In this document: positions 6,591 to 39,421 of the stretch, piece after piece
Position numbering within the stretch: the first letter of the stretch is position 1
How the letters are laid out: each line of letters starts with the position of its first letter
Assembly: GCA_025965715.1 (NCBI GenBank)
Contig: JAOPWJ010000075.1
Span: forward strand, 1-40,499
DNA length: 40,499 nt
Reading direction: 5' to 3'
Source of the DNA: Blastococcus sp.
GTDB taxonomy: Bacteria > Actinomycetota > Actinomycetes > Mycobacteriales > Geodermatophilaceae
Program-made: the position numbers and the translations under genes
The notes under the pieces: generated by a model
The model's database searches: none
What the model saw: only the letters and a program-made list of their open reading frames with translations
What the model was told of the DNA's origin: nothing

Positions 6591-7793
6591 ATGGCGCAGA
6601 CCGTGTCCCGGACCGCGATGTGCGACGAGGCGAGGGCGGGCGGCGATCCCCCGATCGCCGGAGCGCCGACGTCGGTCACCGCCTTTCTCGGGGGGGCGGC
6701 TCAGGGGCCCACCCACGAGGCCGTCCGCGTCGGCGGCGTCGAGGAATTCCATCGCATGTTCGGCGACCTCCACGTCCGCCATCCCATGGGCTACGCGGTA
6801 CGGGACTTCTTCGCCAACGGCGGCACCACAGCCGTGATCGCCCGGCTGTCCGCGGCGTCGGCGGGGGCCGGTGGAGCGCTCGACCCCGCCGCGTACGCCG
6901 GCGACCGCAGCGCGCGCACGGGCAAGTACCTGCTCGACGGCCTGGACCCGGTCAACGTGGTGTGCGTACTGGGCAACGCGCGCGACGAGACCGTGCCCGC
7001 GGCCGTGTACGCGGACCTGCTGGCCTACTGCGTCGAGCGCCGCGCGTTCCTGATCGTCGATCCACCCGTCGAATGGCGACGCGACGAGCTGCTGGCCGAC
7101 CCGGCGGCGCACGTTCGTGCTCTCGGCCTGACCGGTCAGGCGGCCCGGAACGCCGCGGTCTTCTTCCCACGCATCCTGTCCGCCGATCCGCAGCGCGGCG
7201 GACAGGTGGAGAGCTTTCCTCCGTGCGGGGCGGTCGCCGGGACGATGGCCCGCACCGATGCCGCCCGAGGCGTCTGGAAGGCCGCCGCAGGAGCCGACGC
7301 CGGGCTGGTGGGGACGGCCGGCCTCGCCGAGGACCTGACCGACGACCAGAACGCCGTCCTCAACCGGGTCGGCGTCAACCCCCTGCGCAACCTCCCGGCG
7401 GTCGGGCCGGCCGTCTGGGGTGCCGGGACACTGGCCCGCGCCGATCAGGCAGCGGACGCCTACGAGTACGTGCCGGTTCGTCGCACCGCACTCTTCCTGG
7501 AGCGCAGCCTGAGCCGGGGCCTCGAATCCGTCGTGTTCGAACCCAACGACGAGCGGCTGTGGGCACAGATCCGACGCGACGTCGGCGCCTTTCTCGACAG
7601 CCTGTTCCGGCAGGGCGCCTTCCAGGGCAGGACGGCGGCGGACGCGTACTTCGTGACGTGCGACCGGAAGACCACGACGCAGGACGACATCGACCGGGGC
7701 CTGGTCACCGTCGTCGTCGGATTCGCACCGTTGCGGCCCGCGGAATTCGTCGTCCTCCGGCTCCAGCAGAGGGCCGGACGGACGCCGCCCTGA
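6591..7793 (+). CDS. Phage/contractile injection system-type tail sheath protein (isolated gene)
   Basis: 'PIAGAPTSVTAFLGGAAQGPTHEAVRVGGVEEFHRMFG...YAVRDFFANGGTTAVIARL', C-terminal 'IRRDVGAFLDSLFRQGAFQGRTAADAYFVTCDRKTTTQDDIDRGLVTVVVGFAPLRPAEFVVLRL'; GGGGAGGG Shine-Dalgarno upstream of ATG. Confidence 0.85.
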   Translation: MAQTVSRTAMCDEARAGGDPPIAGAPTSVTAFLGGAAQGPTHEAVRVGGVEEFHRMFGDLHVRHPMGYAVRDFFANGGTTAVIARLSAASAGAGGALDPAAYAGDRSARTGKYLLDGLDPVNVVCVLGNARDETVPAAVYADLLAYCVERRAFLIVDPPVEWRRDELLADPAAHVRALGLTGQAARNAAVFFPRILSADPQRGGQVESFPPCGAVAGTMARTDAARGVWKAAAGADAGLVGTAGLAEDLTDDQNAVLNRVGVNPLRNLPAVGPAVWGAGTLARADQAADAYEYVPVRRTALFLERSLSRGLESVVFEPNDERLWAQIRRDVGAFLDSLFRQGAFQGRTAADAYFVTCDRKTTTQDDIDRGLVTVVVGFAPLRPAEFVVLRLQQRAGRTPP

Positions 7794-9305: not shown

Positions 9306-11558
9306 TCAGGACGGTCCGGTGCCGGCGTCAGCCTCCGCTGAGCCGTCGGCTGCGTCGAGGTCGTCGAGGTCGTCGAATGCGCTGATCCCTTCCGGCGGTC
9401 GTGCGGCACCGAAGAAGGTGCCCTGGCCCGCGTCGCAGCCCAACGACAGCAAGAGGTCCACCTGCGCCTGAGTCTCCACGCCCTCGGCGATGACCGTGAG
9501 GTTCAGGAGGTGCGCGAGGGAGATCAGGGAGGCCAGGAGCTGGACGTCGAGGGAGTCCACCCCGCCCTCCCCCGGCAGTTCGCGAAGGAATGTCCCGTCG
9601 AGCTTGAGCTCGTCCAGGGGCAACCGCCGAAGGTAGATCAGGTTCGAGTAGCCGGTCCCGAAGTCGTCGATGGCCAGGCGGACGCCCATGTCCGCGAGCG
9701 CTTGGAGCGTGCGGCCGGTCAGCGGATCGGTGCCGATGACGGCGCTCTCGGTGATCTCCAGCTGCAGCTGCTGGGGGCGAAGTCCGCTGTTCGAGAGCGC
9801 CTGTCGGACGTCCTCGACGAGGCTCTCCTCGCGCAACTGGCGCGTGGCCAGATTGACGCTGACGAAGGGCCCGGAGCTGCGGGCCCCGAACCAGGCGAAG
9901 GCCTGCCGACAGGCGACCTGGAGCACGTGCCGCCCGAGCGCGACGATCGATCCGGACTGCTCGGCCAGCGTGATGAAGTTCTCCGGTCCCAGGAGACCCA
10001 GCCGGGGATGGTTCCACCTGACCAGCGCCTCCACCCCGTGCAGCGAACCATCGACGAGGCGGCGAAGCGGCTGGTAGTGCACCAGCAGGTCCTGTCGTAC
10101 CAACGCCGCCGGCAGGGCGGAGGACAGCGAGTAGCGAGTGAGTTCCTGGGCATCGCGCTCGGGCTCGAACAGCGCCCACTGGCTCTTCCCGTCGGCCTTG
10201 GCCCAGTAGAGCGTCATGTCGGCGGCCCGGAGCAGTTCCGCCGGCGTGATCTCGGCGATCGAGCGCTCGACGACGCCGACACTGGCCGTGACCAGGACCT
10301 GCCGGGAACCGAGGCGCAACGGACGAGCCACGACCGCAAGGATCTCCTCGGCGAGAGCGATCAGCTCTGTACTGCCGGAGGACCCGGGCACCAGGACGAC
10401 GAACTCGTCTCCGCCGAGACGGGCGACCGACAGTCCGCGGTCGCCGACCAGGGACTCGAGCCGGCGGGCGACCATCACCAGGAGGTGATCCCCCACCTCG
10501 TGACCGAGCGTGTCGTTGACCGCCTTGAAGCCGTCCAGGTCGAGGAAGCACAAGCCGGCTCGGGTGCCTGCTGCTGCCGTGGCGAACAGGTCGTCGAGCT
10601 GGGTCAGGAACATCTTGCGGTTCGCCAGGCCGGTCAGCGAATCGTGGTGCGCCTCGAACTCGAGTTGCCGCCGGAGCTCGCGCAGCGCGGTGACGTCGTG
10701 GATCAGCGCCAGCTGGTACCGGGGCAGGCCCTCCCGGTCGCGCAGCAGGGACACCGTCAGATTCGTCCACACCGACTCACCGTTGAACCGCTGGAACTGC
10801 TTCTCGAGCTGGAAGTGGTCCCTCTCGCCCCTGATCAGTTCGTCGTAGAGCTGCCACACCCGTTCGACGTCGGCCGGATGCATGAACTCGTTCACCGACC
10901 GGCGCCGGAACTCCTCGAGTGGATAGCCCAGCAACCGGACGAGCGCCGGATTGACGTCGAGTATGCGTCCATCGAGATCCCCGATGCCGATCCCGATGGT
11001 GGCCCCCTCGAACACCGCACGGAAGCGTTCTTCGCTGACGTGCAGCTCCTGGCGCGCCTGTTCCCTGGCCTGCGCCGCAGCCGCGAGGATGTCCTCCTGC
11101 TCGCGGAGCGCGCGCTCCTGCAGGGCGGAGCTGAAGCCCTCCGCCACCGCAGCGACGAGTTCCTTCCATCGACGCTCCGCCATCCGCGGACCACCGGCAC
11201 CGTGGTTCCCGTCGGCGTCCATGGGTGAGGATGCCCCGATGGTGGCCGGGCACTCCCCGAGGAGCACGTCGAGGGTTCGCGACAACGACCGCGGGTTTGT
11301 GAAGTGCGCGTCGATCAGCGCAGCCCCCACCTCCATACCAACCGTCCGCGCGCAGCCCGACGCGTCCAGCAGGACGGCCTTCATGCGGCGCAGGAGCCCT
11401 ACGAGCAGCTGCTCGACCTCCCCCTGCGGCAGCGGCACGTAGCTGGTGCCGGCGACGGCGCCGGCCCAGACCATCGCCAGGCGCTGCACCTCGCCGTCGT
11501 CGCCCGCGGCCCCGGTCCCGCCGGTGCTCGCCGGCGGTTCCTCCTCCGGCGACCTCAC
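9306..11558 (-). CDS. PAS-GGDEF-EAL protein (diguanylate cyclase/phosphodiesterase)
   Basis: 'SEERFRAVFEGATIGIGIGDLDGRILDVNPALVRLLGY' (PAS), 'LGGDEFVVLVPG' (GGDEF), 'GVEALVRWNHPRLGLLGPENFI...AIDDFGTGYSNLIYLRRLPLDELKLD...IAEGVET' (EAL); GTG start overlaps upstream stop. Confidence 0.95.
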   Translation of the reverse strand: MRSPEEEPPASTGGTGAAGDDGEVQRLAMVWAGAVAGTSYVPLPQGEVEQLLVGLLRRMKAVLLDASGCARTVGMEVGAALIDAHFTNPRSLSRTLDVLLGECPATIGASSPMDADGNHGAGGPRMAERRWKELVAAVAEGFSSALQERALREQEDILAAAAQAREQARQELHVSEERFRAVFEGATIGIGIGDLDGRILDVNPALVRLLGYPLEEFRRRSVNEFMHPADVERVWQLYDELIRGERDHFQLEKQFQRFNGESVWTNLTVSLLRDREGLPRYQLALIHDVTALRELRRQLEFEAHHDSLTGLANRKMFLTQLDDLFATAAAGTRAGLCFLDLDGFKAVNDTLGHEVGDHLLVMVARRLESLVGDRGLSVARLGGDEFVVLVPGSSGSTELIALAEEILAVVARPLRLGSRQVLVTASVGVVERSIAEITPAELLRAADMTLYWAKADGKSQWALFEPERDAQELTRYSLSSALPAALVRQDLLVHYQPLRRLVDGSLHGVEALVRWNHPRLGLLGPENFITLAEQSGSIVALGRHVLQVACRQAFAWFGARSSGPFVSVNLATRQLREESLVEDVRQALSNSGLRPQQLQLEITESAVIGTDPLTGRTLQALADMGVRLAIDDFGTGYSNLIYLRRLPLDELKLDGTFLRELPGEGGVDSLDVQLLASLISLAHLLNLTVIAEGVETQAQVDLLLSLGCDAGQGTFFGAARPPEGISAFDDLDDLDAADGSAEADAGTGPS

Positions 11559-12361
11559 CGTTTGCGGCCCACCCCGGCGTAGCCCGTCGTCCTTTCGGGC
11601 TGCTGCTCGGCTGCCGCCGGGTCGTCGGGGCGCCAGAGCGGCAGCCACACCAGCCCAGGCTCCACGAGCTCGAACCCGTCGAAGAAGTTCTCGAGCTCGG
11701 TGCGGCTGCGCATGGTCATCGGCGTCGCGGTACGGCGGTAGAGCTGCCGGTGCGAGCCGGCCTTCTCGGGGCGGCCCTCGGCGCTTGCGTGCGACAACAC
11801 CAGGTAGCTCCCCCCGGCCAGCCGGGCGCGAATCTTCTCGACCGCACCGTTCGGGTCGTCCTCGTCGGGCACGAAATGCAGCACGGCGACCATGAGGACC
11901 GCCAGGGGCTGGTCCAGGTCGAGGGTCGCGGTGAGGGACGGATGCTCGAACAACGCCTCGGGCTGGCGCAGGTCGGCCTGGATGACCGCCGTCCTCTCGT
12001 CGCCGCCGAGAATGGCACGGCTGTGGGCCACCGCCACCGGATCGTTGTCGACGTAGACGACGCGAGCCCGCGGATCGGCCTGCTGGGCCGCTTCATGCAC
12101 ATTGCCGACGGTCGGTATGCCGGAGCCGATGTCCAGGAACTGGGTGATGCCCTGCTCGGCGACGTAACGCACCGCCCTGCGCATGAACGCTCGGTTGCTC
12201 TGCATGATCGCCGGCAGGTCCGGCCAGAGCTCGATCGCCTCGCGCGCCATGCGTCGGTCCACCTCGAGGTTGTGTGACCCCCCGAGGTAGAAGTCGTAGA
12301 CCCGCGCGGCGCTGGGCCGGGTCAGGTCCACCTCGGCCGGTGCCCAACTGGGACGTTCCAT
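11555..12361 (-). CDS. SAM-dependent methyltransferase, DUF574 (Methyltransf_19) type
   Basis: 'SAARVYDFYLGGSHNLEVDRRMAREAIELWPDLPAIMQSNRAFMRRAVRYVAEQGITQFLDIGSGIPTVGNVHEAAQQADPRARVVYVDNDPVAVAHSRAIL'. Confidence 0.92.
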   Translation of the reverse strand: MERPSWAPAEVDLTRPSAARVYDFYLGGSHNLEVDRRMAREAIELWPDLPAIMQSNRAFMRRAVRYVAEQGITQFLDIGSGIPTVGNVHEAAQQADPRARVVYVDNDPVAVAHSRAILGGDERTAVIQADLRQPEALFEHPSLTATLDLDQPLAVLMVAVLHFVPDEDDPNGAVEKIRARLAGGSYLVLSHASAEGRPEKAGSHRQLYRRTATPMTMRSRTELENFFDGFELVEPGLVWLPLWRPDDPAAAEQQPERTTGYAGVGRKR

Positions 12362-12588: not shown

Positions 12589-14985
12589 TCAGCGCGGTGC
12601 CCCGGCGGCGTGGGTGGTGCCGGATGGCGGCGCCGGCCCGAACGCGGTCAGGAACCGGTCGCGGACGGCGTCCATCCGCCAGACCGGCGCCTTCCCACCC
12701 GGCCGCATCCCGTCGTCCCAGCCCCAGTCGGAGATGCGCTCCAGGACCCCCGGATCGGAGGCGACGACGGTGACCGGCACGTCGTGCGTCGCGTCGGGGC
12801 CGCTGACGACCGGGCCGGGCTGGTGGTCGCCCAGCAGGACCAGCACCAGGTCGTGGTCGTGGTCGTGGAACGTCGTCACGAACGAGATGAGGCTGCTCAG
12901 CGAGTACTCGATCGACTCCCCGTAGAGCCTCTTGACCTGGTCGTCGTCCTGGAACGCCTCGGCAGGTGTCAGCCCCTCTGCCGGCATGCCGCGGTAGACC
13001 GAGCCGTCCCCCACCTCGTCCCAGCCGACCATGTCCGGCAACGGCGTCCACGGCTCGTGTGAGGTGACGAGGTCGATCTCCGCCATCACGGGCGCATGAC
13101 CGGGCGCCAGCTCCAGGCGCTCGAAGGCGGCCAGCGTGTACTGGTCGGGCATCGCCGCGAAGCTGAACTTCGGCCCCTCGTAGCCGACGTCGTGCCGGTC
13201 GTAGTCCTCGTCGAAGCCGTAGAACGCCCGGCCCTCCGGCCACGGGTCGCGGTTCGACGGCACGTCCACGACCGTCCGCCAGCCGGCCCGGTGGAACGCG
13301 GAACCCAACGTGAGCCGGTCGGTGGAGAGCAGCTGGTCGTAGCGCTGCTGGCTGTCGACCCACAGGCCCGAGTGCAGCGTGGCGTGCGCCAGCCAGCTGG
13401 TGCCGCCGAACGTCGAGGAGGTCAGGAACGCGCTCCGTGCGGAGAACCCGGCGTCGTTCAGTGCTTCGGTGCCGTCGTCGAGCACGGCTCGGACGCCACG
13501 CGACAACGGGGAACCCTCCACCGCGACCCGCCCGTAGCTCTCGACGAACGCGAAGATCACGTCCTTGCCGCGGAGCCCGGAGAGCAGGTCCTCGGGCGCC
13601 GATGTGCTGTAGGGGTCTGCCGCCGCCAACTGCGCCCTGAACACCGGTCGATCCCGCAGGTTGGCGAGCGCATCCCCCACCTGGTCCGCCGCGAGCACCG
13701 CCGCACTGCGGGAGGCGACGGGCGCGAACGCAGTGAACTGCACGCCCAGCAGCGCGCACACCAGCCAGAGAGCGCCGAACGCCGCGGCGCCCCTGGCCGC
13801 CACCGCCCGGTGGCCCGCGGTAACCCGGAACGCCTGGACGACCGATGCGGTCACGGCCAGGGGGACGGCGATGGCGAGTACGACGGCACCCACTACGGCG
13901 GCGTGGGCCCACCCCCGCCCGACGGAGTCCTGGAGCACGCCCACGGCCGGCCCGAGCAGGCCCGCGTCGTTGACCGGGTTGAACGGCCGGTGGAGCGCCT
14001 CCCAGAAGCCCATGTCGAGCACCCGCACGACCGCGAGCACTCCGATCAGGACGCCGACGGGCACCGCGACCCCGCGGACCCGGCGCGGCGGCAGGACCAG
14101 CGCCACCCCCACGAGGACGAGTCCCTCGACCGGGATGCGGAGATAGGCCGCGACGGTGACGTGATCGAGCCGCTGGGGAGTCTCCAGCACGGCCCAGAGG
14201 AACGAAACGGCGAGGACGGTCGTCGCGGTCGACAGCGCGCCCCTCCGGCGTCCCCCCGCCGGCACCGGATCAGGCCACCGGGCGGCCGCGGACGGGACAT
14301 GGCGCCTGCGCCACAGCTCCCACACCTCACGGCCGAACGACTCCGCGAGCAGCGCCGCCACGACGACGAGCAGGACGAGGACGACGCCGTGCGGCAGCAA
14401 CCCCGAGGCCGCCGCGATCAGCGCCATGCCCTGGACGGCTGCCACCACCTTGCACCAGTAACGCGGCGGCAACGGGCTCCGCAGCCAGGGCAGAACCCGG
14501 CGGGCGACGACGAGGACGTAGTGCACCGATCCGATCGCGAGAACCCAGAGGCCGAGGGAACGGGCGGCGTAGGCACTGAGGACCAGGATCAGGATCGAGT
14601 CGACCTCCATGTCGAAGCGCGCGCCGACGGCCGACACCGTGCCGGTCCTCCGGGCCACCCGGCCGTCCACCGCGTCCAGCGAGAGGGCCACGACCGCGAC
14701 AGCGGTCAGCGCGCCCACCGCCACGGGTCGTGCGAAGGAGTCCGCGACGAGCGCCACGACGCCGCCGACGAGCACGGACCGCGCCAGCGTGACCAGGTCG
14801 GCGGGCCCGAGCACGGCCGTCCGGGAGCGCCGCAGAGCGCGAGTGAGCAGTCCGACCGCCGCCACGCCGTAGGCCAGGCCGGCGAGCCCGCCGGCGCTGC
14901 CGAGCCCCACCGTGCCGGCAAGGGCGGCGAGGACCGCGACCTGGCCGAGCAGCCCGGTGAGTGCTCCCCGGTGAACCGTCAGCAC
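12589..14985 (-). CDS. Fusion: N-terminal CDP-alcohol phosphatidyltransferase and C-terminal alkaline-phosphatase-superfamily (LtaS/phosphoglycerol transferase-like) domain
   Basis: CDP-alcohol phosphotransferase motif 'DAVDGRVARRTGTVSAVGARFDMEVDS'; C-terminal 'VIFAFVESYGR...SSTFGGTSWLAHATLHSG...VLLGDHQPGP' typical of membrane AP-superfamily transferases; one continuous 798-aa ORF. Confidence 0.88.
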   Translation of the reverse strand: MLTVHRGALTGLLGQVAVLAALAGTVGLGSAGGLAGLAYGVAAVGLLTRALRRSRTAVLGPADLVTLARSVLVGGVVALVADSFARPVAVGALTAVAVVALSLDAVDGRVARRTGTVSAVGARFDMEVDSILILVLSAYAARSLGLWVLAIGSVHYVLVVARRVLPWLRSPLPPRYWCKVVAAVQGMALIAAASGLLPHGVVLVLLVVVAALLAESFGREVWELWRRRHVPSAAARWPDPVPAGGRRRGALSTATTVLAVSFLWAVLETPQRLDHVTVAAYLRIPVEGLVLVGVALVLPPRRVRGVAVPVGVLIGVLAVVRVLDMGFWEALHRPFNPVNDAGLLGPAVGVLQDSVGRGWAHAAVVGAVVLAIAVPLAVTASVVQAFRVTAGHRAVAARGAAAFGALWLVCALLGVQFTAFAPVASRSAAVLAADQVGDALANLRDRPVFRAQLAAADPYSTSAPEDLLSGLRGKDVIFAFVESYGRVAVEGSPLSRGVRAVLDDGTEALNDAGFSARSAFLTSSTFGGTSWLAHATLHSGLWVDSQQRYDQLLSTDRLTLGSAFHRAGWRTVVDVPSNRDPWPEGRAFYGFDEDYDRHDVGYEGPKFSFAAMPDQYTLAAFERLELAPGHAPVMAEIDLVTSHEPWTPLPDMVGWDEVGDGSVYRGMPAEGLTPAEAFQDDDQVKRLYGESIEYSLSSLISFVTTFHDHDHDLVLVLLGDHQPGPVVSGPDATHDVPVTVVASDPGVLERISDWGWDDGMRPGGKAPVWRMDAVRDRFLTAFGPAPPSGTTHAAGAPR

Positions 14986-15138
14986 GGCGCCTCCGTGTCG
15001 CTAGGTACGTCCCCATGACACGGAACGCGCGACGATGCGGTTCATCGGACGCGCCGAGGAGGTACGGCAGGTGGCACGAGACGCGCGGTCATCGTGGCGG
15101 TTCGGGCAGCCGCGCGGTCGGATCTGCGGCACGGTTCC

Positions 15139-16227
15139 GTGACGACCGTCCACGTCGTCCTCCCCGACGGCATCGACGACGACGCACGGCCCAGCGGCGG
15201 CAACGGTTACGACCGTCGGCTCTGCGACGAGCTCACCGCGTCGGGCTGGAACGTGCGCGAACTCGTCGTGCCGGGGCCGTGGCCCCGCCCGGGCAGGACG
15301 ACTCTCTCCCGGCTGGCGCGAGCGGTCGCCACCGTGCCGGACGGCGGGCTCGTCCTGCTGGACGGCCTGATCGCCTCCGCCGGCGCCGCCGCCCTCGTGC
15401 CGGAGTCGGCCCGGCTGCGGCTGGTGGTCCTGGTCCACATGCCGTTCGGCGAGGTTGCCGTCGCGGCGGCCGCCGAGTGCGCCGTCCTGACCCATGCCCG
15501 CGCCGTCGTCGCCACCAGCGAATGGACGCGGCGCCAGCTGCTCGACCGCTACCGGCTCCCGCCGGGGAGGGTGCACGTCGCCCGGCCCGGGGCGGATCGC
15601 GGCGACGAGGCGCCCGGCACCCCGGGCGGCGGCCGGCTCCTGTGCGTCGCCGCCGTGGTGCCGCACAAGGGCCACGACCTGCTGCTCAGCGCGCTCTCCG
15701 GCATCGCGTCACCGTCATGGAGCTGCACCGTCGTCGGCCCACTCGACCGCGATCCCCCGTTCGTCGCCCGGCTCCGGCTCCTGTCCGCCGACCGGCTCCT
15801 GGCCGACCGGATCCTCTTCACCGGACCGCTGGCCGGTCCGGAGCTGCGCCGGCAGTACCGACGTGCGGACCTGCTGGTCCTGCCGTCCCGTCTGGAGGCG
15901 TACGGAATGGTCGTCACCGAGGCACTCGCCGTCGGGCTGCCGGTTGTGGCGGCCGACGTCGGTGGCGTGCCCGAGGCACTGGGACGAACCCCGGAGGGTC
16001 TCCCCGGGGTGCTCGTGCCGCCCGACGACGCCGACGCCCTCCGCGTGGCCCTCTGCACGTGGTTGACCGACGCCGGTCAGCGGGCCCGGCTGCGCCGGGC
16101 GGCACGGGAACGACGGCGGGCGCTGGAGGGCTGGGAGGCCACGGCGGCGCGGGTGGCCGAGGTGCTGGTCGCGGTCGGCGCCGAGCCGAGGCCGGTCGCC
16201 CGTGCCGACCCGGTGTGCGGGACATGA
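15139..16227 (+). CDS. GT4-family glycosyltransferase
   Basis: 'VATSEWTRRQLLDRY...HVARPGAD...LCVAAVVPHKGHDLLLSAL...LVLPSRLEAYGMVVTEALAVGLPVVAADVGGVPEAL'; GTG 15139 likely start. Confidence 0.9.
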   Translation: MTTVHVVLPDGIDDDARPSGGNGYDRRLCDELTASGWNVRELVVPGPWPRPGRTTLSRLARAVATVPDGGLVLLDGLIASAGAAALVPESARLRLVVLVHMPFGEVAVAAAAECAVLTHARAVVATSEWTRRQLLDRYRLPPGRVHVARPGADRGDEAPGTPGGGRLLCVAAVVPHKGHDLLLSALSGIASPSWSCTVVGPLDRDPPFVARLRLLSADRLLADRILFTGPLAGPELRRQYRRADLLVLPSRLEAYGMVVTEALAVGLPVVAADVGGVPEALGRTPEGLPGVLVPPDDADALRVALCTWLTDAGQRARLRRAARERRRALEGWEATAARVAEVLVAVGAEPRPVARADPVCGT

Positions 16228-17198
16228 ACGGCCGGTCGTGGGCGTGGGCGCGAGTGCTCGGCGGGGCCGGGATCCTCGCCGTCCTCGGCCGGCACCTCGG
16301 AACAGGCCCCTTTCTCGACGGGGTGCGCCAGATCAGCGTCTGGTCCCTGCTGGTCGCCACGTCGATCACGATCGGAACCACCGTGTGCTCGGCGTGGCGG
16401 TGGCAGACCGTCGCGCGCGGCCTGGGCGTCGGGCTGCCACTGGGCCGGGCGATAGCGGCGTGCTACCGGTCGCAGTTCCTCAACAGCGCGCTGCCCGGCG
16501 GCGTGGTCGGCGACGTCCATCGCGGCGTCCGGCACGGCCTGGATGCCGGGAACCTCGGCCGCGGTCTGCGCGCGGTCGGCTGGGAGCGTGCGGCCGGACA
16601 GGTCGTGTTCACGGTGCTCGCGGGGATTTCGCTGCTCGTCCTGGACTCGCCGGTGCGCGCGCCCATGCCTTGGGTCGCCGCCACCGCCGTCGCCGCGGCA
16701 CTGGCCGTGGCGTTCCTGCTGCGGGCCCTCCCGCCGCTCGGGTCCTCCCGGCGGGCACGGGTCGTACGCGCCGCCCGCGCCGACATCAGGGCCGCCGTGC
16801 TCGACCGGCGGGCCTGGCCGGTCGTCACGGTCACCTCGGGCGCCGTGGCGGTCGGCCACGGCTGCGTCTTCCTGGTCGCGGCGTGGACCACCGGGTCGGA
16901 GGCCTCGCCGGCACGGTTGTGGCCGCTGGCGATGCTGGTCCTCCTGGCAGCGGCCGTTCCCCTCAACGTCGGCGGTTGGGGCCCCCGGGAGGGGATGGCC
17001 GCCTGGGTCTTCGCCGCCGCCGGCCTCGGCGCGGCGCAGGGTGTGGCCACAGCCACGGCCTACGGCGTGCTGGGCCTGGTGGCAACGCTGCCCGGTGCGC
17101 TCGTGCTCGCGGCCGAACGGATGACCCGCCGCCGGGACCGGCCCCCCTCGACCGGGGTTCCCCACGTCAGCGGTGCCGCCGACGTCCCGGTCGCCTGA
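16224..17198 (+). CDS. Lysylphosphatidylglycerol synthase TM-region/UPF0104-like integral membrane protein
   Basis: Multi-TM; 'AWRWQTVARGLG...YRSQFLNSALPGGVVGDVHRGVRHG...VPLNVGGWGPREGMAAWVFAAAGLG'; ATGA overlap with the GT4 gene. Confidence 0.85.
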   Translation: MNGRSWAWARVLGGAGILAVLGRHLGTGPFLDGVRQISVWSLLVATSITIGTTVCSAWRWQTVARGLGVGLPLGRAIAACYRSQFLNSALPGGVVGDVHRGVRHGLDAGNLGRGLRAVGWERAAGQVVFTVLAGISLLVLDSPVRAPMPWVAATAVAAALAVAFLLRALPPLGSSRRARVVRAARADIRAAVLDRRAWPVVTVTSGAVAVGHGCVFLVAAWTTGSEASPARLWPLAMLVLLAAAVPLNVGGWGPREGMAAWVFAAAGLGAAQGVATATAYGVLGLVATLPGALVLAAERMTRRRDRPPSTGVPHVSGAADVPVA

Positions 17199-17239
17199 AG
17201 GCCATTCCCAACCTGCCGGGCCGGGAGCATCCTGGGCCG

Positions 17240-17821
17240 ATGGCGCACACCGCCGCGCAGAAGAGCATGGCGATCCCGCTGACGGCGTTCGCCCTCGGCG
17301 CCGTGGTGGCCCTCCTCGTGGGGGTGTTCGGCCGGGTGCACGACCCGACGCTCGAGGGCACGACCACCCTGGGCTACTCGACCGTCCTCGCGATGAAGAC
17401 GGTGGTCGCGACCGTCATCGGCGTGCTCGTCGTCGTCCAGCTGGTGACGGCGTTGTGGATGTACGGCCGGCTCGGCATCCGGACGCCGTCCTGGCTGGGG
17501 ACGGCGCATCGCACGACCGGGGCGAGCGCCCTCGTGCTGACCCTGTTCGTCGCCTACCACTGCCTGTGGTCCCTGGGCCTCGAGGTCGGGTCGCTGCCGG
17601 ACGGCGAGCAGGTGAGCACCCGGACCTTCGTGCACGGCCTGTCGGGCTGCGCCGTCCTGGGGGCCGTCGTGGTGAAGATCGTCGCCGTCCGGTCTCGGCG
17701 GGCACCCGGATGGTTCCTGCCCGTGGCCGGTGGCCTTCTCCTCTCACTCCTCGTCCTCGCCATCCTGACGTCGGCCGCCTGGTACCTCGGCGTCAAGGGC
17801 TGGCCGAGCCTGGCCGGGTAG
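17240..17821 (+). CDS. Small multi-TM membrane protein with conserved-looking histidines (cytochrome b-like?)
   Basis: About 193 aa, several hydrophobic helices, His in 'TAHRTTGASALVL', 'AYHCLWSLG', 'FVHGLSGCAVLG'. Confidence 0.7.
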   Translation: MAHTAAQKSMAIPLTAFALGAVVALLVGVFGRVHDPTLEGTTTLGYSTVLAMKTVVATVIGVLVVVQLVTALWMYGRLGIRTPSWLGTAHRTTGASALVLTLFVAYHCLWSLGLEVGSLPDGEQVSTRTFVHGLSGCAVLGAVVVKIVAVRSRRAPGWFLPVAGGLLLSLLVLAILTSAAWYLGVKGWPSLAG

Positions 17822-17867
17822 GGAGGACCGCATCCCGCCCCCTGCTCTCCAACGGCTCCGGGCAGGA

Positions 17868-17887
17868 GCTCGAGGTGAGCCTCGAGC
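17868..17887. terminator. Candidate intergenic hairpin between convergent genes
   Basis: GCTCGAGG-TGAG-CCTCGAGC, perfect 8-bp stem and 4-nt loop between stops at 17821 (+) and 17966 (-); no U-tract. Confidence 0.35.
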
Positions 17888-17965
17888 CGCGGCTGTTCGA
17901 CGAGCCCACGGACGCCGAGCTCGAGGTCTCCGAGAACGCCGAGGTGCCGCCCGCGGCGCCGGAGC

Positions 17966-19375
17966 TCAGGGGGTGGGACGCACGTCCTCCCCTGTCCGCG
18001 CCGATCCCGAGCCGACCGGTTGGTCCCGAACGCCCGAGGCGTCGAGCACGTCATAGCCGAGCAGGACGTCGTCGTCGGCCAGGAACACCGAGCGGTTGAC
18101 CAGCCGAATGCCGTCCGCGACGCGGTTCACGCCGAGCGGGCCGACCGCCTCGATGCCCGAACCGATGATCGTCGGCGACAGCGAGACGACGATGCGGTCG
18201 ACCGCGGCCGCCCGCAGCATCGAGGTGATCACGCGGCCACCCCCCTCGACGAGCAGCGACGAGATCCCGAGCGACCGCAGCAGGCGCAGCACGTCGTCCA
18301 TGCGCAACCCCTCGGGCCCCGGCGCGACGTCCCGCACCGTGGCGCCCGTGGACGCGAGGGCCCGGCGGCGCGCCGGATCGGCATCGGGCCGGCAGAGGAT
18401 CACGGTGGCCGCGTCGTCGGAGAGCACCTTCGCGGTGAGCGGAGTGCGCAACGTCGAGTCCAGGACCACGCGCAGCGGCGACGCCCCGGGCACCATCCGC
18501 ACCGTGAGCTGCGGATCGTCCCGGAGCACGGTGCGTGCACCGACGAGGACCGCGTCACAACCGGCGCGCATAGCGTGGGACACCTGCCGTTCCCGCTCCC
18601 CACTGATCCACGTGGCGTCGCCGGTCCTGGTGGCGATCCGCCCGTCGAGGGTCTGGGCGTACTTGACGACGACGCCCGGCCGATCGGCGGAGGGCCGCAG
18701 CGAGCCCAGCAGGTCACCGACGTCGACCGGCGCAACGGGCAACTCGGCCAACCGTGGGCCGATCGACCGCAGGTGCCCGAGCCGTGCCTGCTTGGTCTCC
18801 AGATAGCCACGGTTGTGCCGGTTGGCGGCCGATCCCAGCGACTGCACCGACTCGACCGGGACCCCGTGCCACAGCAGTCCCCCCGCCTTGGCCGGATTGT
18901 TCGTCAGGAGCCGGACCGAGCGGACGCCGAGGGACCGCAGGATCGCCGCCGCGTCGCCGTAGTCGCGCACGTCGGCCTGCAGGCCCAGCCGCAGGTTGGC
19001 ATCAATGGTGTCGGCGCCGGCATCCTGCTCGACATATGCCCGCAGCTTGTTGACCAGTCCGATCCCGCGCCCCTCGTGGCCGTTGACGTACAGCACGATG
19101 CCCCGTCCCTCGGACGCGACGATCCGCAGTGCCGACCGCAGCTGGACGCCGCAGTCGCAGCGGAGCGAGCCGAGGGCGTCCCCGGTCAGGCACTCCGAGT
19201 GCACCCGGGTCAGCAGCGACTCGCCGTCCCCGATCTCGCCGAACACCAGGGCGAGGTGCACGTGCCCCGAGGCGCTCTCGAACGCCCGCGCGGAGAACTC
19301 TCCGTACGGCGTGGGGATCGGCGCTGACGCCACCTCGATCGGTGCCGGGCCGACCGGCGACGGCGCGACGTCCAT
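17966..19375 (-). CDS. Fusion of GTP cyclohydrolase II (RibA-like) and RibD C-terminal reductase domain
   Basis: '[27 protein letters not shown]...[45 protein letters not shown]...[10 protein letters not shown]' (GCHII with three Zn Cys and catalytic-position Tyr), then '[24 protein letters not shown]...[18 protein letters not shown]...[14 protein letters not shown]' (RibD_C). Confidence 0.93.
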
Positions 19376-19467
19376 GGGCTCACTCCTCGTTGCTGCGTCA
19401 ACCGGGATCACGGACGCTAGCGTCGCGCCGGTTCAATGTGCGGGGAAACATCGGGGAGTGAGGCGAC

Positions 19468-20451
19468 GTGCACGCCGTCCGACTGCTGTTCGCGGGACCG
19501 CGGCAGATCCGGTTCGAGCCCCTGGACCTGCCCACACCCGACCCGGACACGCTGCTGGTGCGCACGCTGTACTCGGGGATCAGCACCGGTACCGAGCTGC
19601 TCGGCTACCGCGGTCTGCTGGACCCCGACCTCCCGGTCGACGACCGGATCGGGTCACTCGGCGGCACGTTCCGCTACCCGTTCCCCTACGGCTACAGCTG
19701 CGTCGGCGAGGTCGAGCGATCGGCCGGAACCGTGCCTCCCGGAACGCTGGTCTTCGCGTTCCACCCCCACCAGGACCGGTTCCTGGTCGGGACGGACGAG
19801 GCTGTCGCCCTTCCCGCGGGCACCGACCCGCGCCTGGCCACGTTGCTGCCCTTCGTCGAGACCGGGCTCCAGCTCAGTCTCGACGCCGGCCAGGTCGCCC
19901 AGGAGACGGTCGTCGTACTCGGTCTCGGCGTGGTGGGCGTGATCACGGCTCTGCTGCTGCAGCGGGCAGGCGCCACGGTGGTCGCTGCGGATCCGTGGGC
20001 CGAGCGCCGATCCCTGGCGGCCTCGCTGGGCATCCACGCGGTCGAGCCCGAACAGTTGCCGTCGCGCCTGCCCTCCGGAGGCGTGCCGCTGGTCGTGGAG
20101 CTCTCCGGCTCCCCCGCCGCGCTCGCCGGGACGCTGGACCTGCTCGCCCATGAGGGCACCGCCCTGGTGGGCTCCTGGTACGGCCGCCAGCAGGTGGAGC
20201 TGCCCCTCGGGGGCGCGTTCCACCGCCGCCGCCTGACGATCCGGAGCAGCCAGGTGTCGACCGTTCCCGCCGCGCTCACCGGCCGCTGGGACGTCGGCCG
20301 TCGCCGCCGGGTCGCCCTCGCCCTGCTCGGCGAGCTGCCGCTGCGCGCGCTGGCCACGACCGAGTACGCCTTCGAGGACGCGGCCGAGGCCTACCGGGCG
20401 CTGGACGGTCGTGAACCGGGGATCGTCCACGTCGCGCTCCGCTATCGATAG
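19468..20451 (+). CDS. MDR-superfamily dehydrogenase, BchC-like
   Basis: 'TLLVRTLYSGISTGTELLGYRG...PYGYSCVGEV...TVVVLGLGVVGVITALLLQRAGATVVAADPWAERRSLAASLG'. Confidence 0.85.
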   Translation: MHAVRLLFAGPRQIRFEPLDLPTPDPDTLLVRTLYSGISTGTELLGYRGLLDPDLPVDDRIGSLGGTFRYPFPYGYSCVGEVERSAGTVPPGTLVFAFHPHQDRFLVGTDEAVALPAGTDPRLATLLPFVETGLQLSLDAGQVAQETVVVLGLGVVGVITALLLQRAGATVVAADPWAERRSLAASLGIHAVEPEQLPSRLPSGGVPLVVELSGSPAALAGTLDLLAHEGTALVGSWYGRQQVELPLGGAFHRRRLTIRSSQVSTVPAALTGRWDVGRRRRVALALLGELPLRALATTEYAFEDAAEAYRALDGREPGIVHVALRYR

Positions 20452-20466
20452 CGGCTATCAATAGCA
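20439..20466. repeat. 16-bp perfect palindrome followed by an imperfect 13-bp tandem copy at a gene junction
   Basis: CCGCTATCGATAGCGG (20439-20454); GCTATCGATAGCG (20441-20453) then GCTATCAATAGCA (20454-20466), 11/13 identical. Confidence 0.8.
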
Positions 20467-20468
20467 CC

Positions 20469-20837
20469 GTGTACGAGACCGGGACCGCGCTGCAGGTACG
20501 GGCCTTCCACGTCCTGCCCGGCATGCCTCCCCCGGAGGGTGAGCGGCACGCGCACGACTACCGGGTCGATGTCGTCGTCCGCCGGGACGACCTCGACGAA
20601 CGCGGCATGGTGGTGGATCTGGACCTGCTCGACCAGGCACTGCGAGGCGCCGCCGCGCGGGTCGACGGCGCGGATCTGGAGAACATCGTCGATGTCGAGG
20701 CCGTGACCGTCGAGGTCTTCGCCCGGTGGGTGCACCGGGAGCTTGCGACCGCGCTGGGCGGGCTACCCGGCGCGACGCTCGCCGTGCGGATCTGGGAGTC
20801 GCCCGACGCGTTCGGCGGGTACACGGCGTCGCTGTGA
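20469..20837 (+). CDS. 6-pyruvoyl-tetrahydropterin synthase/QueD-fold homolog, catalytically divergent
   Basis: 'VRAFHVLPGM...RHAHDYRVDVVV...RGMVVDLDLLDQAL...VDGADLENI...EAVTVEVFARWVHREL...WESPDAFGGY' follows the QueD pattern; GTG start. Confidence 0.8.
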   Translation: MYETGTALQVRAFHVLPGMPPPEGERHAHDYRVDVVVRRDDLDERGMVVDLDLLDQALRGAAARVDGADLENIVDVEAVTVEVFARWVHRELATALGGLPGATLAVRIWESPDAFGGYTASL

Positions 20838-21778
20838 CCCGGAGGATCGCCCGGGCGCTGGTCGGTCCGATGCCCGTTCCGTTGGCCGACGCCCTGCGGC
20901 GGGTGCTCCGGCCGGGTGAGGGCGCTCGCCTGCCGGACCGGATGCGCCGGGCGGTCCTGCGCCGCCTCTACCGGGGTGGGATCCCGCGCGGGGTCTCGAG
21001 CTTCCGCCTGGTCGACAACGCCGGCGTCGAATTCGTCGCCGTCGACTCACAGGTGCTCGAGCAGCTGTACTGGTGCGGCGAGCAGGGCTGGGAGCCGGAG
21101 CTCCTGCCATGGTGGCGTGCCTTCTGCCGGCGCTCGCGGTCGGTCCTCGAGCTCGGCACGAACATCGGATACTTCGCGGTCCAGGGCGGTCGCGCCGCGC
21201 CGGGGGTCCGTTACGTCGCCGTGGAGCCGCACCCGTTGTCCGCCGAGATCTGCCGGACCCACCTCGCCCTCAACTCGGTGACCTCCGTCGAGGTCCTCCA
21301 GGCAGCGGCGGTGGCGGACCCCGCCGTCTCCTCCGTCGCGCTGCTCGTCCCGGCCGACCAGGCGGCGACGCCGACGGTCGCCTTCCTGTCCTCGGAGACG
21401 GAGCTGCCCGTGGACATGGCCATGAACGTCACCGCCGTCATCGACGTGCCCGCCATCGACGTCCGGACGCTGCTGGACGGCGTCGACCTGATCAAGATGG
21501 ACGTCGAGGGGCAGGAGCACGTCCTGCTGGGCGCCATGCGGCAGCACCTCCGTCAGCGGCGGCCGACCCTGTTCGTCGAGGTCCTGCCGGGGACGGTGCA
21601 GCTGCGTGCCCTGCTCGCCGAGTTGTGCCGAACCGAGGGATACCGGTGTTATGCCCTGAGCCGGTGGGGGGCCGTCGAGCTCGACGGGGAACGGCTGGCC
21701 ACGGCCCGGCTGATGGACGAGTTCGGATGCCAGGACGTTCTTCTCTGCGCCGGTGAGCTGCCGCCCCTGACCCGATGA
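20834..21778 (+). CDS. FkbM-family methyltransferase
   Basis: 'SVLELGTNIGYFAVQGGRAAPGVRYVAVEPHPLSAEICRTHLALN...IDVRTLLDGVDLIKMDVEGQEHVLLGAM'; GTG start overlaps PTPS stop (GTGA). Confidence 0.88.
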   Translation: MTRRIARALVGPMPVPLADALRRVLRPGEGARLPDRMRRAVLRRLYRGGIPRGVSSFRLVDNAGVEFVAVDSQVLEQLYWCGEQGWEPELLPWWRAFCRRSRSVLELGTNIGYFAVQGGRAAPGVRYVAVEPHPLSAEICRTHLALNSVTSVEVLQAAAVADPAVSSVALLVPADQAATPTVAFLSSETELPVDMAMNVTAVIDVPAIDVRTLLDGVDLIKMDVEGQEHVLLGAMRQHLRQRRPTLFVEVLPGTVQLRALLAELCRTEGYRCYALSRWGAVELDGERLATARLMDEFGCQDVLLCAGELPPLTR

Positions 21779-22131
21779 ACGGAAACGGCGGCCGCACGGA
21801 GGGACCGGCGACGCTCATGGGCTGGCTCGGTCGGAGTACGGTCCGCGCGGCCTCGCCGCTCGCCGTCTACTGGCTGAATGGTCGCCGTCCACGCGTGGAG
21901 CCCGACCGCCCGGATGTGGAAACCGGTCGTCCAGGTTCCGGGGCAACAGCCGCGGACCGCACGTGGTCCAGTGCTCCGGAGTCGGTGCGAGCCAGGTCCG
22001 CGCCCGGGGCGGGTTCCGCCGGCACACGGTTGCCGCACAACCAGCGCCCTGGTTGTCGGGGCGGTCCCGGAGTGCCGGTGCGGATGCCGACGAGCACTCC
22101 GTCGCGGTCCGGCGGCACCCTCGGAGCCTAG
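21775..22131 (+). CDS. Hypothetical protein, possible operon terminal gene
   Basis: ATGA overlap with FkbM stop; stop codon shares CTAG with the convergent gene; composition otherwise low complexity. Confidence 0.3.
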   Translation: MNGNGGRTEGPATLMGWLGRSTVRAASPLAVYWLNGRRPRVEPDRPDVETGRPGSGATAADRTWSSAPESVRARSAPGAGSAGTRLPHNQRPGCRGGPGVPVRMPTSTPSRSGGTLGA

Positions 22132-22709
22132 GACGCCAGAGGCTCAGCGGGCCGGCTTCCACTCCGGTGCCGTTCCAGCAGGAAAAAGCTGACGGGCACC
22201 CGCCTCGGTCCGATCGCCAGGTACGCCTTGCCGAGCAGCAGGTCCGGCGAGCCCGGCTCCAGGGCGACGACGTAGTCCCGGATGGCGCGCGCAACGCTGA
22301 GGCGGGGGTTCTGGGGGACGTCGTAGTCGAACAGCAGCGCGGGCAGGCGCGCACCGACCGGCCCCGAATGGACCGGCTCGACGCGGAAGAAGCCGAAGCG
22401 CTTGGGTGCCTCGGCGGTGGGCAGCGGCGCCCAGTCGCCGTCGAGGCCGTTCTGCCGGACCGGGCTGTTGTGCCCGAGCACCGCGTTTCCGCGCGCCGAG
22501 TCGCCGGCCGGATCGAAGCCTTTGAGGAACGTCCGGATGCGTAGGGCCTCGGCCCAGGCGGGGCGGTTGTAGCCCAGATACGGGGACCCGACGAGGGCGG
22601 ACGGCGACGGCGCGACACCCGCGGCGAAGAGCCGTTCGAGGTCGGCCGGCGAGCGTCGGGCGAGCCGGCGGAACTCTCCGGAGGCCCGTATCGCCCCCTC
22701 ACCGGGCAT
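22128..22709 (-). CDS. Hypothetical protein, third gene of the GMC oxidoreductase operon
   Basis: 'SPYLGYNRPAWAEALRIRTFLKGFDPAGDSARGNAVLGHNSPVRQNGLDGDW...FGFFRVEPVHSGP'; ATG at 22709 overlaps the GMC gene end. Confidence 0.65.
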   Translation of the reverse strand: MPGEGAIRASGEFRRLARRSPADLERLFAAGVAPSPSALVGSPYLGYNRPAWAEALRIRTFLKGFDPAGDSARGNAVLGHNSPVRQNGLDGDWAPLPTAEAPKRFGFFRVEPVHSGPVGARLPALLFDYDVPQNPRLSVARAIRDYVVALEPGSPDLLLGKAYLAIGPRRVPVSFFLLERHRSGSRPAEPLAS

Positions 22710-24243
22710 GACGACGCCAGTTCCCGAGCAGGTTCTCGGCGTTGCGGATGGCCAGCGCCACGATGGTCTCCATCGGATTGACCCCGACCGGACCCGGGAA
22801 CAGGCTCGCGTCGGCGACGAACAGGCCGGTCGCCCCATGAAACTCCCCGAAACTGGACACGACCGCGCGCCGGGGGTCCTCGCCCATCCGCGCCGTGCCC
22901 ATGAGGTGCACGCTGAACAGATCGAGGTCGGACTTCGCCACCGGGCCGGCGAGCAACGCGTCGAGCTCCCGGGGACTGCCGACCTCCGGCGCGCCGCGCA
23001 GCGGCAGCAGCACGCGTCGGGCGCCGGCCGCCAGCAGCGTCTGCGCGGTCAGCGTGATGCCGCGAACCACCCGCCGGGCGCCCTCGTCGTCGAGCTGGTA
23101 GCTGACGACCGGCCCCACCCCGGGGACGCTGCGGACCCGGCCGGTGGTCGTGTCCTCGACCAGGCAGCCGGCCACCACCATCCGGTTGTAGTCGGCCATG
23201 AGCTCGGCCAGCTCCGTCCCGTAGTGCGGGAGACCCAGGGTCACCAGGGCGGGCGGGAGGTTCGCGGCGGCGAGCAGAATGCCCTCGTCGAGGAACTCGC
23301 GCACCTGATAGGCCTGGTGAACTCCGTGCCAGCCACGCACCTCCTCGTCGAAGATGCCGATCACCCGCGCGTTCGGGTGCAGGGTCAGGTTCCGGCCCAG
23401 CCGTCCGGACGGCGACCGGAAACCAGAGCGACGGAGCAGCGTGGGGCTCTGCACAGCCCCGCCGGCCGCAACCACGACCGACGCCCGTACCCGCAGCCGC
23501 GCCCCGGGAGCCCCGTCCCGGGGCCCGAACCGCCCGACGATCCCGGTGGCCCGGCTGCCGATCCGCGTGATGCGCTCGACGCGGCAGTCGGCGTACAGCC
23601 GGGCGCCGCGGCTCAGCGCCCGGGGCACCTCTGTGACGAGCATGGAGCGCTTGGCGCCCGTGGGACAGCCCCACAAGCAGGCGTTGCAGCCGCAGCAGTG
23701 CAGCTGATTGCGGGTGTTGGCGATCAGCTCCCACCCGTTTCGCTCGGCCCCGGCGCGGAAGAGCTCGCTGTCCCGGCCGATCGACGCCGGGTCCTGGGGA
23801 CCGACCGACAGCCGTCGTTCGACGCGCTCGAAGTACGGCTCCATCGCCTGGGGCGTGATCGCGCGCAGTTCCTCGCCGGCCCAGCGCTGCAGTACCCGGT
23901 CGGGGGTGCGGAAGCTCATGCCCCCGTTCACGACGGTCGACCCACCGACGCAGCGCCCCTCCGAGAAGGCGACGGGCGGCCTGCCGAACGCGGTCTGCGC
24001 GCCGCCGTCGCGGTACAGGGTGCGCAACGCGTGCGGAACGTCCACGGAGAACGATGCGGTCGGGTGGTAGCCCCCCTCCTCGACCACGACGACGTCGAGG
24101 CCGCCGTCCGCCAGCTCTGCGGCTGTGCTCGCCCCACCCGCCCCACTCCCGACGACCACGACGTCGCAGTCGACGCTGAGGTCGCCGGGCACGTCGTCGG
24201 CGACGACCAGTCCGCTCGGAACGGTGGCTGACACTGTGGACAT
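22699..24243 (-). CDS. GMC-family FAD oxidoreductase (alcohol oxidase type)
   Basis: 'DVVVVGSGAGGASTAAELADGGLDVVVVEEGG', 'GRCVGGSTVVNGGMSFRTPDRVL', 'CCGCNACLWGCPTGAKRSML', 'VADASLFPGPVGVNPMETIVALA'. Confidence 0.92.
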   Translation of the reverse strand: MSTVSATVPSGLVVADDVPGDLSVDCDVVVVGSGAGGASTAAELADGGLDVVVVEEGGYHPTASFSVDVPHALRTLYRDGGAQTAFGRPPVAFSEGRCVGGSTVVNGGMSFRTPDRVLQRWAGEELRAITPQAMEPYFERVERRLSVGPQDPASIGRDSELFRAGAERNGWELIANTRNQLHCCGCNACLWGCPTGAKRSMLVTEVPRALSRGARLYADCRVERITRIGSRATGIVGRFGPRDGAPGARLRVRASVVVAAGGAVQSPTLLRRSGFRSPSGRLGRNLTLHPNARVIGIFDEEVRGWHGVHQAYQVREFLDEGILLAAANLPPALVTLGLPHYGTELAELMADYNRMVVAGCLVEDTTTGRVRSVPGVGPVVSYQLDDEGARRVVRGITLTAQTLLAAGARRVLLPLRGAPEVGSPRELDALLAGPVAKSDLDLFSVHLMGTARMGEDPRRAVVSSFGEFHGATGLFVADASLFPGPVGVNPMETIVALAIRNAENLLGNWRRHAR

Positions 24244-24746
24244 CAGACCCCGGATCCCGGATCGAGCAGGAACGCGGCGCGCTCGCCGAGACGGATCTGC
24301 TGGCCGTAGCGCTCGATGCGGCGCGCCGCCGTCGCCCGGACATACGCCGCCGGGGAGTACCCGAGCGCCTCCTCGATCCGCGGCAGGCCGTAGTAGTGCA
24401 GCGTGAGCACGCCCTTCATCAGGGTGAGCAACGATCGGGTTCCCCGGGAACCGGCCGCCCGACGCCGGTAGTAGATCTCTGCCTGCCGGCGATCCAGGTC
24501 GACGAAACGCCGTCCGCGTCCCTCCCGGGTCAGCCGGGCGGCCTGGTCGAACACGGCGAACGACGTGAGCAGGAGGGCCCTCGTGCCCTTTCCCGTTGCG
24601 CCGAGGAACTGCTCGACGTTGCCGAGCAGGGCGGGCCAGACCGTGTCGAGCGACGGCTCCGGAGGGCACACGACATCCGCGAACGCGCGCAGCGTCCTCC
24701 GCTGTCGCCGGGAGAGTGCGTGGTCGGGCAGCCGCACACACGTCAA
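24243..24746 (-). CDS. Gluconate-2-dehydrogenase subunit 3-like/hypothetical protein paired with the GMC oxidoreductase
   Basis: 'LSRRQRRTLRAFADVVCPP...YYRRRAAGSRGTRSLLTLMKGVLTLHYYGLPRIEEALGY'; TGATG junction with GMC gene. Confidence 0.65.
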   Translation of the reverse strand: MTCVRLPDHALSRRQRRTLRAFADVVCPPEPSLDTVWPALLGNVEQFLGATGKGTRALLLTSFAVFDQAARLTREGRGRRFVDLDRRQAEIYYRRRAAGSRGTRSLLTLMKGVLTLHYYGLPRIEEALGYSPAAYVRATAARRIERYGQQIRLGERAAFLLDPGSGV

Positions 24747-24819
24747 CGTCCCGCCGGAACGACCCGCCCGTCAATCGGGTCGCGCGCGGTGGACAGCGGT
24801 CTCCGGGCCCGTCGGCGCC

Positions 24820-32831: not shown

Positions 32832-38321
<5,490 letters not shown>

Positions 38322-38624
38322 GGGTGAACCTCTTCCCTGTCGATGCGCGACCCCGCGGCGACTCGCTGTCCGCGGGGCCGTCCCCCACGGGGCCGGTCCG
38401 ACCGTCGTCCACCTGCCGTCGAACCGACCAGCCACGACCCTGCCGCAGCATCCTGTGGGAAGCGAGCGACCGTCAAACGGAGCGGGGAACAACGGAGGGG
38501 CCGGCGGCCCGTCCGGCAGCGGGCGACGCGTCGCCGCGCAGCGGTTGCCGACCAGGACGGCACCCGGCCCGCCGTCCCAGGCTGCCACACTGTCCGGGCA
38601 TCGGAGGACGGCGGAGGGGATGCC

Positions 38625-39311
38625 ATGCGCCCGTTGATCGGCATCACGACCTACCGCGAGCAGGCGCAATGGGGCACCTGGCACGTGCCGGCAGTGCTGC
38701 TGCCCGCCTCCTACGCCGACGCCGTCGCCGCGGCGGGCGGCGAGCCGGTGCTCCTGCCGACCGGCGCGATCAGCGCCGAGGTCGTCGGCCGGCTCGACGG
38801 GCTCGTCGTGGCGGGCGGGGCGGACGTCGACCCTGCCCGGTACGGCCGGCCGGCCGGGCCGCACACCACGACCCTGCGTCCCGAGCGGGATGAGTCGGAG
38901 GTGACGGCCCTGCAGGCCGCACTCGACCGCGACCTGCCCGTGCTGGCCATCTGCCGTGGCATGCAGCTGCTCAATGTCGTCCTCGGTGGAGACCTCGTGC
39001 AGCACCTCCCCGACGTCGAGACCGCCGCGATCCACGATCCCGGCGCCGGCCGCTACCACCGACGCGAGGTGCGCACCGAGCCGGGGACGGGGCTGCACCG
39101 GCTCCTCGGTCCGACGGTGTCGGTGGCCTGTCATCACCACCAGGCGCTGGACCGGATCGCCGCCGAACTCACGGCGTCGGCGTGGGCGGAGGACGGCGTC
39201 GTCGAGGCGGTCGAGGCGGCCGACCGGCGGTTCTGCGTGGCCGTGCAGTGGCATCCGGAGGAGGGCGTGGACCGACGCCTCTTCGCCGCGCACGTCGCCG
39301 CGGCCGGCTAA
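38625..39311 (+). CDS. Class I glutamine amidotransferase-like gamma-glutamyl hydrolase (PuuD family)
   Basis: 'RPLIGITTYRE', 'LDGLVVAGGADVDPARYG', nucleophile motif 'VLAICRGMQLLNVVLGG', 'AVQWHPEE'. Confidence 0.9.
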   Translation: MRPLIGITTYREQAQWGTWHVPAVLLPASYADAVAAAGGEPVLLPTGAISAEVVGRLDGLVVAGGADVDPARYGRPAGPHTTTLRPERDESEVTALQAALDRDLPVLAICRGMQLLNVVLGGDLVQHLPDVETAAIHDPGAGRYHRREVRTEPGTGLHRLLGPTVSVACHHHQALDRIAAELTASAWAEDGVVEAVEAADRRFCVAVQWHPEEGVDRRLFAAHVAAAG

Positions 39312-39421
39312 CGGTCCCACTACCAACCGTTGCAGAGGCTTGTGAACATGATCATGCCGCCCTAGGGTCCGATCCCCGGACCGCCGCCCGGGATCGGTGA
39401 GCCCCCGAAGGTAGGACGCGC

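Follow-up and report, generated by a model that had tools for sequence, protein, structure and literature searches.

What does a bacterium make with a gene block in which the first enzymes of riboflavin synthesis stand among genes for membrane-lipid enzymes? The question is raised by positions 12589-21778 of a 40,499-nucleotide stretch of Blastococcus sp. DNA (the window; contig C164, GenBank JAOPWJ010000075.1), which belongs to an assembly of 3.5 Mb that is 80% complete (GCA_025965715.1). The initial annotation, made from the sequence alone, named eight gene families in this block, and all eight were recovered with Pfam and NCBIfam profiles at the coordinates given below. The reading that we favour, and to which we give about an even chance, is that an early, GTP-derived riboflavin precursor is diverted to a glycosylated, probably membrane-attached, pterin-like compound. 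That the block is a horizontally distributed cassette branching off the riboflavin precursors is part of this reading, and in our judgement the balance is equally even for that part.

The centre of the block is formed by a GTP cyclohydrolase II (GCHII) fused to a RibD_C reductase, without a deaminase domain (17966-19411, minus strand; PF00925 197 bits, PF01872 153 bits), a Zn-less dehydrogenase of the MDR family with a BchC-like annotation (19468-20451, plus strand; PF00107) and a PTPS-fold protein without the Cys-Asp-His triad (20469-20837, plus strand; PF01242 65 bits). When 396 genomes of the phylum were searched for the PTPS gene, the best-scoring matches adjoined GCHII/RibD_C, the MDR gene and, in nearly all, a GT4 glycosyltransferase gene; no module stood alongside about 20 weaker matches (L059-L078) or the class-level PTPS genes L194, L195, L200, L201, L203, L205 and L206. 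The MDR gene was taken as the hallmark of the module, and a scan with its alignment of the genome_contigs collection (one genome per species, 84,980 species) gave 358 relatives. The 80 that were kept came from Actinobacteria, Rubrobacter, Chloroflexi, gamma- and deltaproteobacteria, Opitutales and haloarchaea. Together with loci found through PTPS they make up a set of 107, the 80 having been picked by MDR alone. PTPS was present in 98 of these loci, GT4 in 91, RibD_C in 80, GCHII in 57, a UPF0104-like gene in 34 and a CDP-alcohol transferase in 30.

PTPS and MDR lay on the same strand in all 98 loci that had both, and at most 1.5 kb apart in 96. Since genomes that have PTPS carry only one or two copies, well under one PTPS gene within 10 kb would be expected by chance in the 107 loci, and the grouping is far beyond chance. 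Distance matrices of the core genes were congruent (MDR-PTPS r 0.86, n 77; MDR-RibD_C 0.86; MDR-GCHII 0.77; 0 of 500 permutations), an agreement owed in part to shared species history. Phosphatase and methyltransferase genes recurred in the module loci. The three haloarchaeal genomes tested had no GCHII, and neither GCHII nor RibD_C was found beside MDR in their loci, which would follow if the archaeal riboflavin route were the source of the reduced intermediate 2,5-diamino-6-ribitylamino-4(3H)-pyrimidinone 5'-phosphate (DARiPP). Two reduced haloarchaeal sets, each consisting of MDR, PTPS, GT4 and a methyltransferase (L151 and L158), lie on one chromosome of Haladaptatus pallidirubidus. The cassette is real and widely conserved: it recurs in soil actinobacteria, in gammaproteobacteria and, as a reduced set, in haloarchaea; the co-occurrence on which the initial annotation had staked its proposal extends far beyond close relatives.

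The remaining genes of the block belong largely to a second group. A protein with an N-terminal CDP-alcohol phosphatidyltransferase domain (12589-14985, minus strand; PF01066 44 bits) is followed by a GT4 glycosyltransferase (15094-16227, plus strand; PF00534/PF13692) and a UPF0104 or LPG_synthase_TM-like, flippase-like membrane protein (16224-17198, plus strand; a weak TIGR00374 match of 23.7 bits, below the cut-off of 43.2). Scores of the module GT4s with a hidden Markov model were bimodal, 505 bits for the GT4 of the window and 125-218 for others. With 370 bits or more as the definition of a lipid-type GT4, 25 loci had this type, to which the window belongs, and 66 had another GT4. A UPF0104-like gene was present in 24 of the 25 but in only 8 of the 66, and a CDP-alcohol transferase in 23 of the 25 as against 5 of the 66 (Fisher ~1e-14 for the association). 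Lipid-type GT4s occur in Actinobacteria, gammaproteobacteria and Opitutales; UPF0104 orthologues 45-80% identical to that of the window adjoin the same GT4 elsewhere, and in gammaproteobacteria the place of this gene is filled by a distinct member of the LPG_synthase_TM family. GT4, CDP-alcohol transferase, flippase-like protein and a methyltransferase are thus a second linked half in one sub-type of the module. The methyltransferase MT14 recurs in 18 of the 25 lipid-type loci, and the window has in its stead an FkbM-family methyltransferase (20834-21778, plus strand; PF05050/TIGR01444 above cut-off), copies of which, 55-81% identical, adjoin the module in several other loci. The translational couplings noted initially are present, an ATGA overlap between the GT4 and UPF0104 genes and a GTGA overlap between those of PTPS and FkbM. 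Anaerolineae have an alternative lipid-linked version: upstream of MDR, modules L131, L135, L136 and L139 carry genes for an acyltransferase and for an LPG_synthase_TM protein.

The enzymes of the core have features of their own. In GCHII (TIGR00505 also above cut-off) the RAY motif and the cysteines were read directly; three Cys, which we take to be the zinc ligands by E. coli RibA numbering, and the presumed catalytic Tyr and Arg are in place. The RibD_C domain of the window scored higher with the archaeal reductase model (137.6 bits) than with the eubacterial RibD model (116 bits), although it stayed below the equivalog cut-off of the archaeal model (TIGR01508, 186.45) and does not qualify as a stand-alone archaeal-type enzyme. 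The same order was seen in 9 of 9 module members compared and was reversed in the genome's own RibD; the margin was small in some members, and the eubacterial model includes the deaminase half. BchC (TIGR01202) was the best model for the MDR protein, but with 71 bits against a cut-off of 291 it does not qualify as a BchC. The AlphaFold2 model of the MDR protein (pLDDT 93) had as its nearest folds threonine (Tdh), butanediol, sorbitol, xylitol and arabinitol dehydrogenases and TarJ; the usual zinc ligands are replaced, and P100-H101, S236-W237, H252 and Q262 are invariant. The module PTPS-fold proteins lack the catalytic Cys; its place is taken by Glu in the clade of the window and in the proteins from gammaproteobacteria and haloarchaea, and by Ala in the FGPA clade. 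In the window protein E23 takes this position, while the pterin-binding Glu (E110), which is invariant, and all three zinc His are retained. By motif it is neither a QueD (PTPS-I, CxxxHGH), since the motif reads E23xxxH27AH, nor a PTPS-III (ExxHGH), having G24 at the position three before the His and A28 for Gly.

In the lipid half, the motif DAVDGRVARRTGTVSAVGARFDMEVD, read in translation, fits the CDP-alcohol transferase pattern DxxDGxxARx8GxxxDxxxD, in agreement with the PF01066 score above cut-off. The C-terminal half of this protein (about residues 430-798, predicted to be extracytoplasmic) gave no Pfam match and no sequence match in the PDB. Its AlphaFold2 model (pLDDT 74.5) matched LtaP/LtaS, MCR and GacH best (TM-score ~0.5, match probability 1.00), and the motifs ESYG, TFGG and GDHQ are largely conserved in homologues. 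With moderate confidence, the domain is predicted to be LtaP/LtaS/MCR/GacH-like, so that the alkaline phosphatase label initially given to it would hold at superfamily level. In predicted fold and putative metal-site motifs it may resemble LtaS, EptA-MCR and GacH, but it differs from them in being fused to a CDP-alcohol transferase and in having only 10-15% identity.

A pathway can be proposed from these gene families, the fusion, the linkage and its conservation, the missing deaminase and the missing PTPS triad. By established enzymology, GCHII would open GTP to 2,5-diamino-6-ribosylamino-4(3H)-pyrimidinone 5'-phosphate. RibD_C would reduce this product without deamination to DARiPP, as suggested by the lack of a deaminase and the archaeal-like reductase. 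DARiPP is an intermediate in archaea and fungi but does not accumulate with bacterial RibD. The polyol-dehydrogenase-like MDR protein might oxidise the ribityl chain; if C2' were the carbon oxidised, the resulting ketone and the 5-amino group could condense into a ring of the 7,8-dihydroneopterin type. The PTPS-fold protein, in which the Glu that binds the 2-amino-4-oxo-pyrimidine is kept and the lyase triad lost, may be the site where this ring is formed or modified. Glycosylation by GT4 and methylation by FkbM would follow. In the lipid sub-type, the CDP-alcohol transferase, UPF0104 and the LtaS-like domain may finally attach the unit, on the outer side of the membrane, to a phospholipid or an envelope polymer. 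Of the elaboration and envelope linkage envisaged initially, the lipid part would apply to one sub-type of the module and not to all, and FkbM and the DUF6529 protein described below are local additions.

Several relatives were compared with this scheme. The pointer in the initial annotation to SCO6655 and SCO6650 in a similar neighbourhood led to the right place: a Streptomyces-type locus (L191) holds a CDP-alcohol transferase, MDR, PTPS, GT4, a methyltransferase, UPF0104 and GCHII, and SCO6650 (PDB 3d7j) is almost the same protein as its PTPS. GCHII follows PTPS at a distance of five genes, which matches the spacing of SCO6650 and SCO6655 if the creatininase is counted and the numbers are taken as gene order. 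Judged by these sequences, the SCO6650 locus is the Streptomyces counterpart of the window cassette. The two share families, with GT4 about 50% and UPF0104 about 53% identical. The Streptomyces locus differs in having a separate GCHII without adjacent RibD_C, a creatininase, an FGPAQ motif and a PTPS that has lost its third zinc His, whereas the window has the GCHII-RibD_C fusion, the PEGxxHxH motif, FkbM and DUF6529. The creatininase-family gene (13878-14639 of L191, minus strand; the family is ArfB-like) stands between UPF0104 and GCHII where RibD_C is missing; matches to RibD_C in this genome were weak, and none lay beside the locus. The archaeal ArfA-ArfB-ArfC branch resembles the window in reducing without prior deamination and in the higher score of its reductase model, but in the window a bacterial GCHII replaces ArfA and RibD_C falls below the archaeal cut-off. 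The PTPS-IV subfamily (COG0720) likewise has PF00925, there labelled FolE2, and PF01872 as neighbours (PMC5445326). The window differs in reading PPPEGERHAH, without the FGPAQ signature that Streptomyces members have, and the passages on PTPS-IV in PMC5041015 and PMC5445326 do not describe MDR, GT4 or the lipid half. A search of the literature for the product of a PTPS-IV/SCO6650-type locus found only these PTPS-IV notes and no paper on the SCO6650 structure.

Could the block simply serve a known cofactor? Riboflavin synthesis begins with GCHII and RibD_C, and a redundant or back-up supply of riboflavin would account for them. However, RibB, RibE, RibH and the RibD deaminase were absent from the block in a Pfam scan, as had been noticed initially, so it is no riboflavin operon, and the full set that the initial annotation had asked for elsewhere in the genome was found on contig C220, where ribD (deaminase and reductase), ribE, ribBA and ribH lie in a row. 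FolE is encoded on contig C64. With its own rib operon and FolE the genome depends on the locus neither as its sole riboflavin set nor for folate, and a role in replacing FolE is not required. Expression of SCO6655 was moreover anticorrelated with predicted riboflavin flux (r ~ -0.61; PMC2853524), and with the complete separate operon we reject the back-up role as highly improbable. The operon, together with the archaeal-like reductase, supports diversion of a GTP-derived intermediate as initially proposed. A part in coenzyme F420 synthesis, for which PMC5041015 lists PTPS-IV on the strength of unpublished work, appears just as improbable. Of 24 module genomes, 12 had a CofG above cut-off, but by this measure it was missing from the other 12, among them the isolates Desertimonas flava, Desulfopila sp. 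IMCC35006, Methylomonas methanica and Ca. Chloroploca Khr17, so F420 as the general role of the module is largely refuted.

Two other explanations deserve more weight. The core may make a soluble glycosylated pterin or pyrimidine, a cofactor or pigment, with the CDP-alcohol transferase, UPF0104 and LtaS-like genes as a separate, co-travelling envelope function. We regard this as improbable but worth serious attention, since 66 of the 91 GT4-bearing loci have a non-lipid GT4, mostly without CDP-alcohol transferase, and the haloarchaeal loci L151 and L158 show no lipid genes. On the other hand, distances of GT4, UPF0104 and CDP-alcohol transferase track one another and the core (r 0.59-0.93), the lipid set is repeated in all three groups that have the lipid-type GT4, and other core loci bear LPG_synthase_TM or acyltransferase genes. 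The LtaS-like half was highly congruent with GT4 and UPF0104 (0.93) and weakly with the core genes (r 0.13-0.45, n 7-8). GCHII/RibD paralogues occur in toxoflavin-type pathways, and a secreted specialised metabolite, toxoflavin- or nucleoside-like, would suit the methyltransferases, the glycosyltransferase and a patchy distribution; conservation from bacteria to archaea with congruent gene distances, the recurring membrane-lipid genes and the lack of recurring assembly-line genes among the gene clusters scanned make it rather unlikely. Diversion to a membrane-attached pterin-like compound has difficulties too. The presence of FolE means that no pterin route is needed for folate, and reduction followed by re-oxidation at C2' would amount to a simple Amadori isomerisation, which leaves room for oxidation at a different carbon. 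Streptomyces has GCHII and a creatininase without adjacent RibD_C, and its PTPS lacks the third zinc His, so that the chemistry may not be uniform. The CDP-alcohol transferase is missing in most GT4-bearing loci.

Within the family, the block is carried by 3 of 60 sampled genomes. Nucleotide homology to two congeneric loci (L213 and L214) covers 12628-21764, with none outside, and so coincides with the block as initially delimited. Genome G548 keeps the left neighbour, and there homology ends at 12484, some 100 bases short of the block; the PTPS of the locus gave no match in this genome. Because of this confinement, the break at the edge and the sparse distribution, the block is an accessory cassette. 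The DUF6529 His-containing membrane protein (17240-17821, plus strand, start ATG at 17240; PF20139 182 bits) is found in L213 and L214, in the latter on the other side of the CDP-alcohol gene, and had no match in L081; it is therefore a loose part, local to the genus.

The left neighbour, immediately next to the cassette, encodes a PAS-GGDEF-EAL cyclic-di-GMP protein (9306-11648, minus strand). To the right, the open reading frame at 21815-24343 (minus strand) was rejected as a cassette neighbour, being a shadow of the true genes; 22128-24774 (minus strand) contains a GMC oxidoreductase and a small partner gene, plus a reading frame of 167 amino acids at 24243-24746. This region is shared with one Blastococcus metagenome-assembled genome (L081/L216), but most of the genomes sampled from the genus lack it. 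Farther away lie a phage tail sheath-like protein (6591-7793, plus strand; PF17482 and PF04984 matches), possibly of a contractile system, and a reading frame of 2164 amino acids (32832-39326, minus strand).

Until now both the PTPS-IV/SCO6650 family and its partner GCHII have been orphans, with a solved structure and a noted neighbourhood but no product found in the literature searched. That PTPS-IV lies beside GCHII/RibD_C was already known; the analysis of the locus adds the full gene complement, the division into core and lipid half and a testable candidate for the branch-point metabolite, DARiPP, and argues against the published F420 suggestion. More tentatively, and with the chances clearly against it, a cross-domain pathway can be envisaged in which pterins or pterin-like rings arise from GCHII rather than GTP cyclohydrolase I chemistry, the ribityl chain being first reduced and then oxidised and the ring closed in a PTPS-fold enzyme without the triad, and become lipid-linked envelope glycosides in one widespread sub-type. 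A pterin-like lipid or glycoside as the product would mean that bacteria and archaea put riboflavin precursors to a new use, and lipid-linked pterin glycosides on the envelope would form a so far undescribed class of membrane lipid. The recurrence of the module from soil actinobacteria to gammaproteobacteria and, reduced, to haloarchaea makes its product worth isolating.

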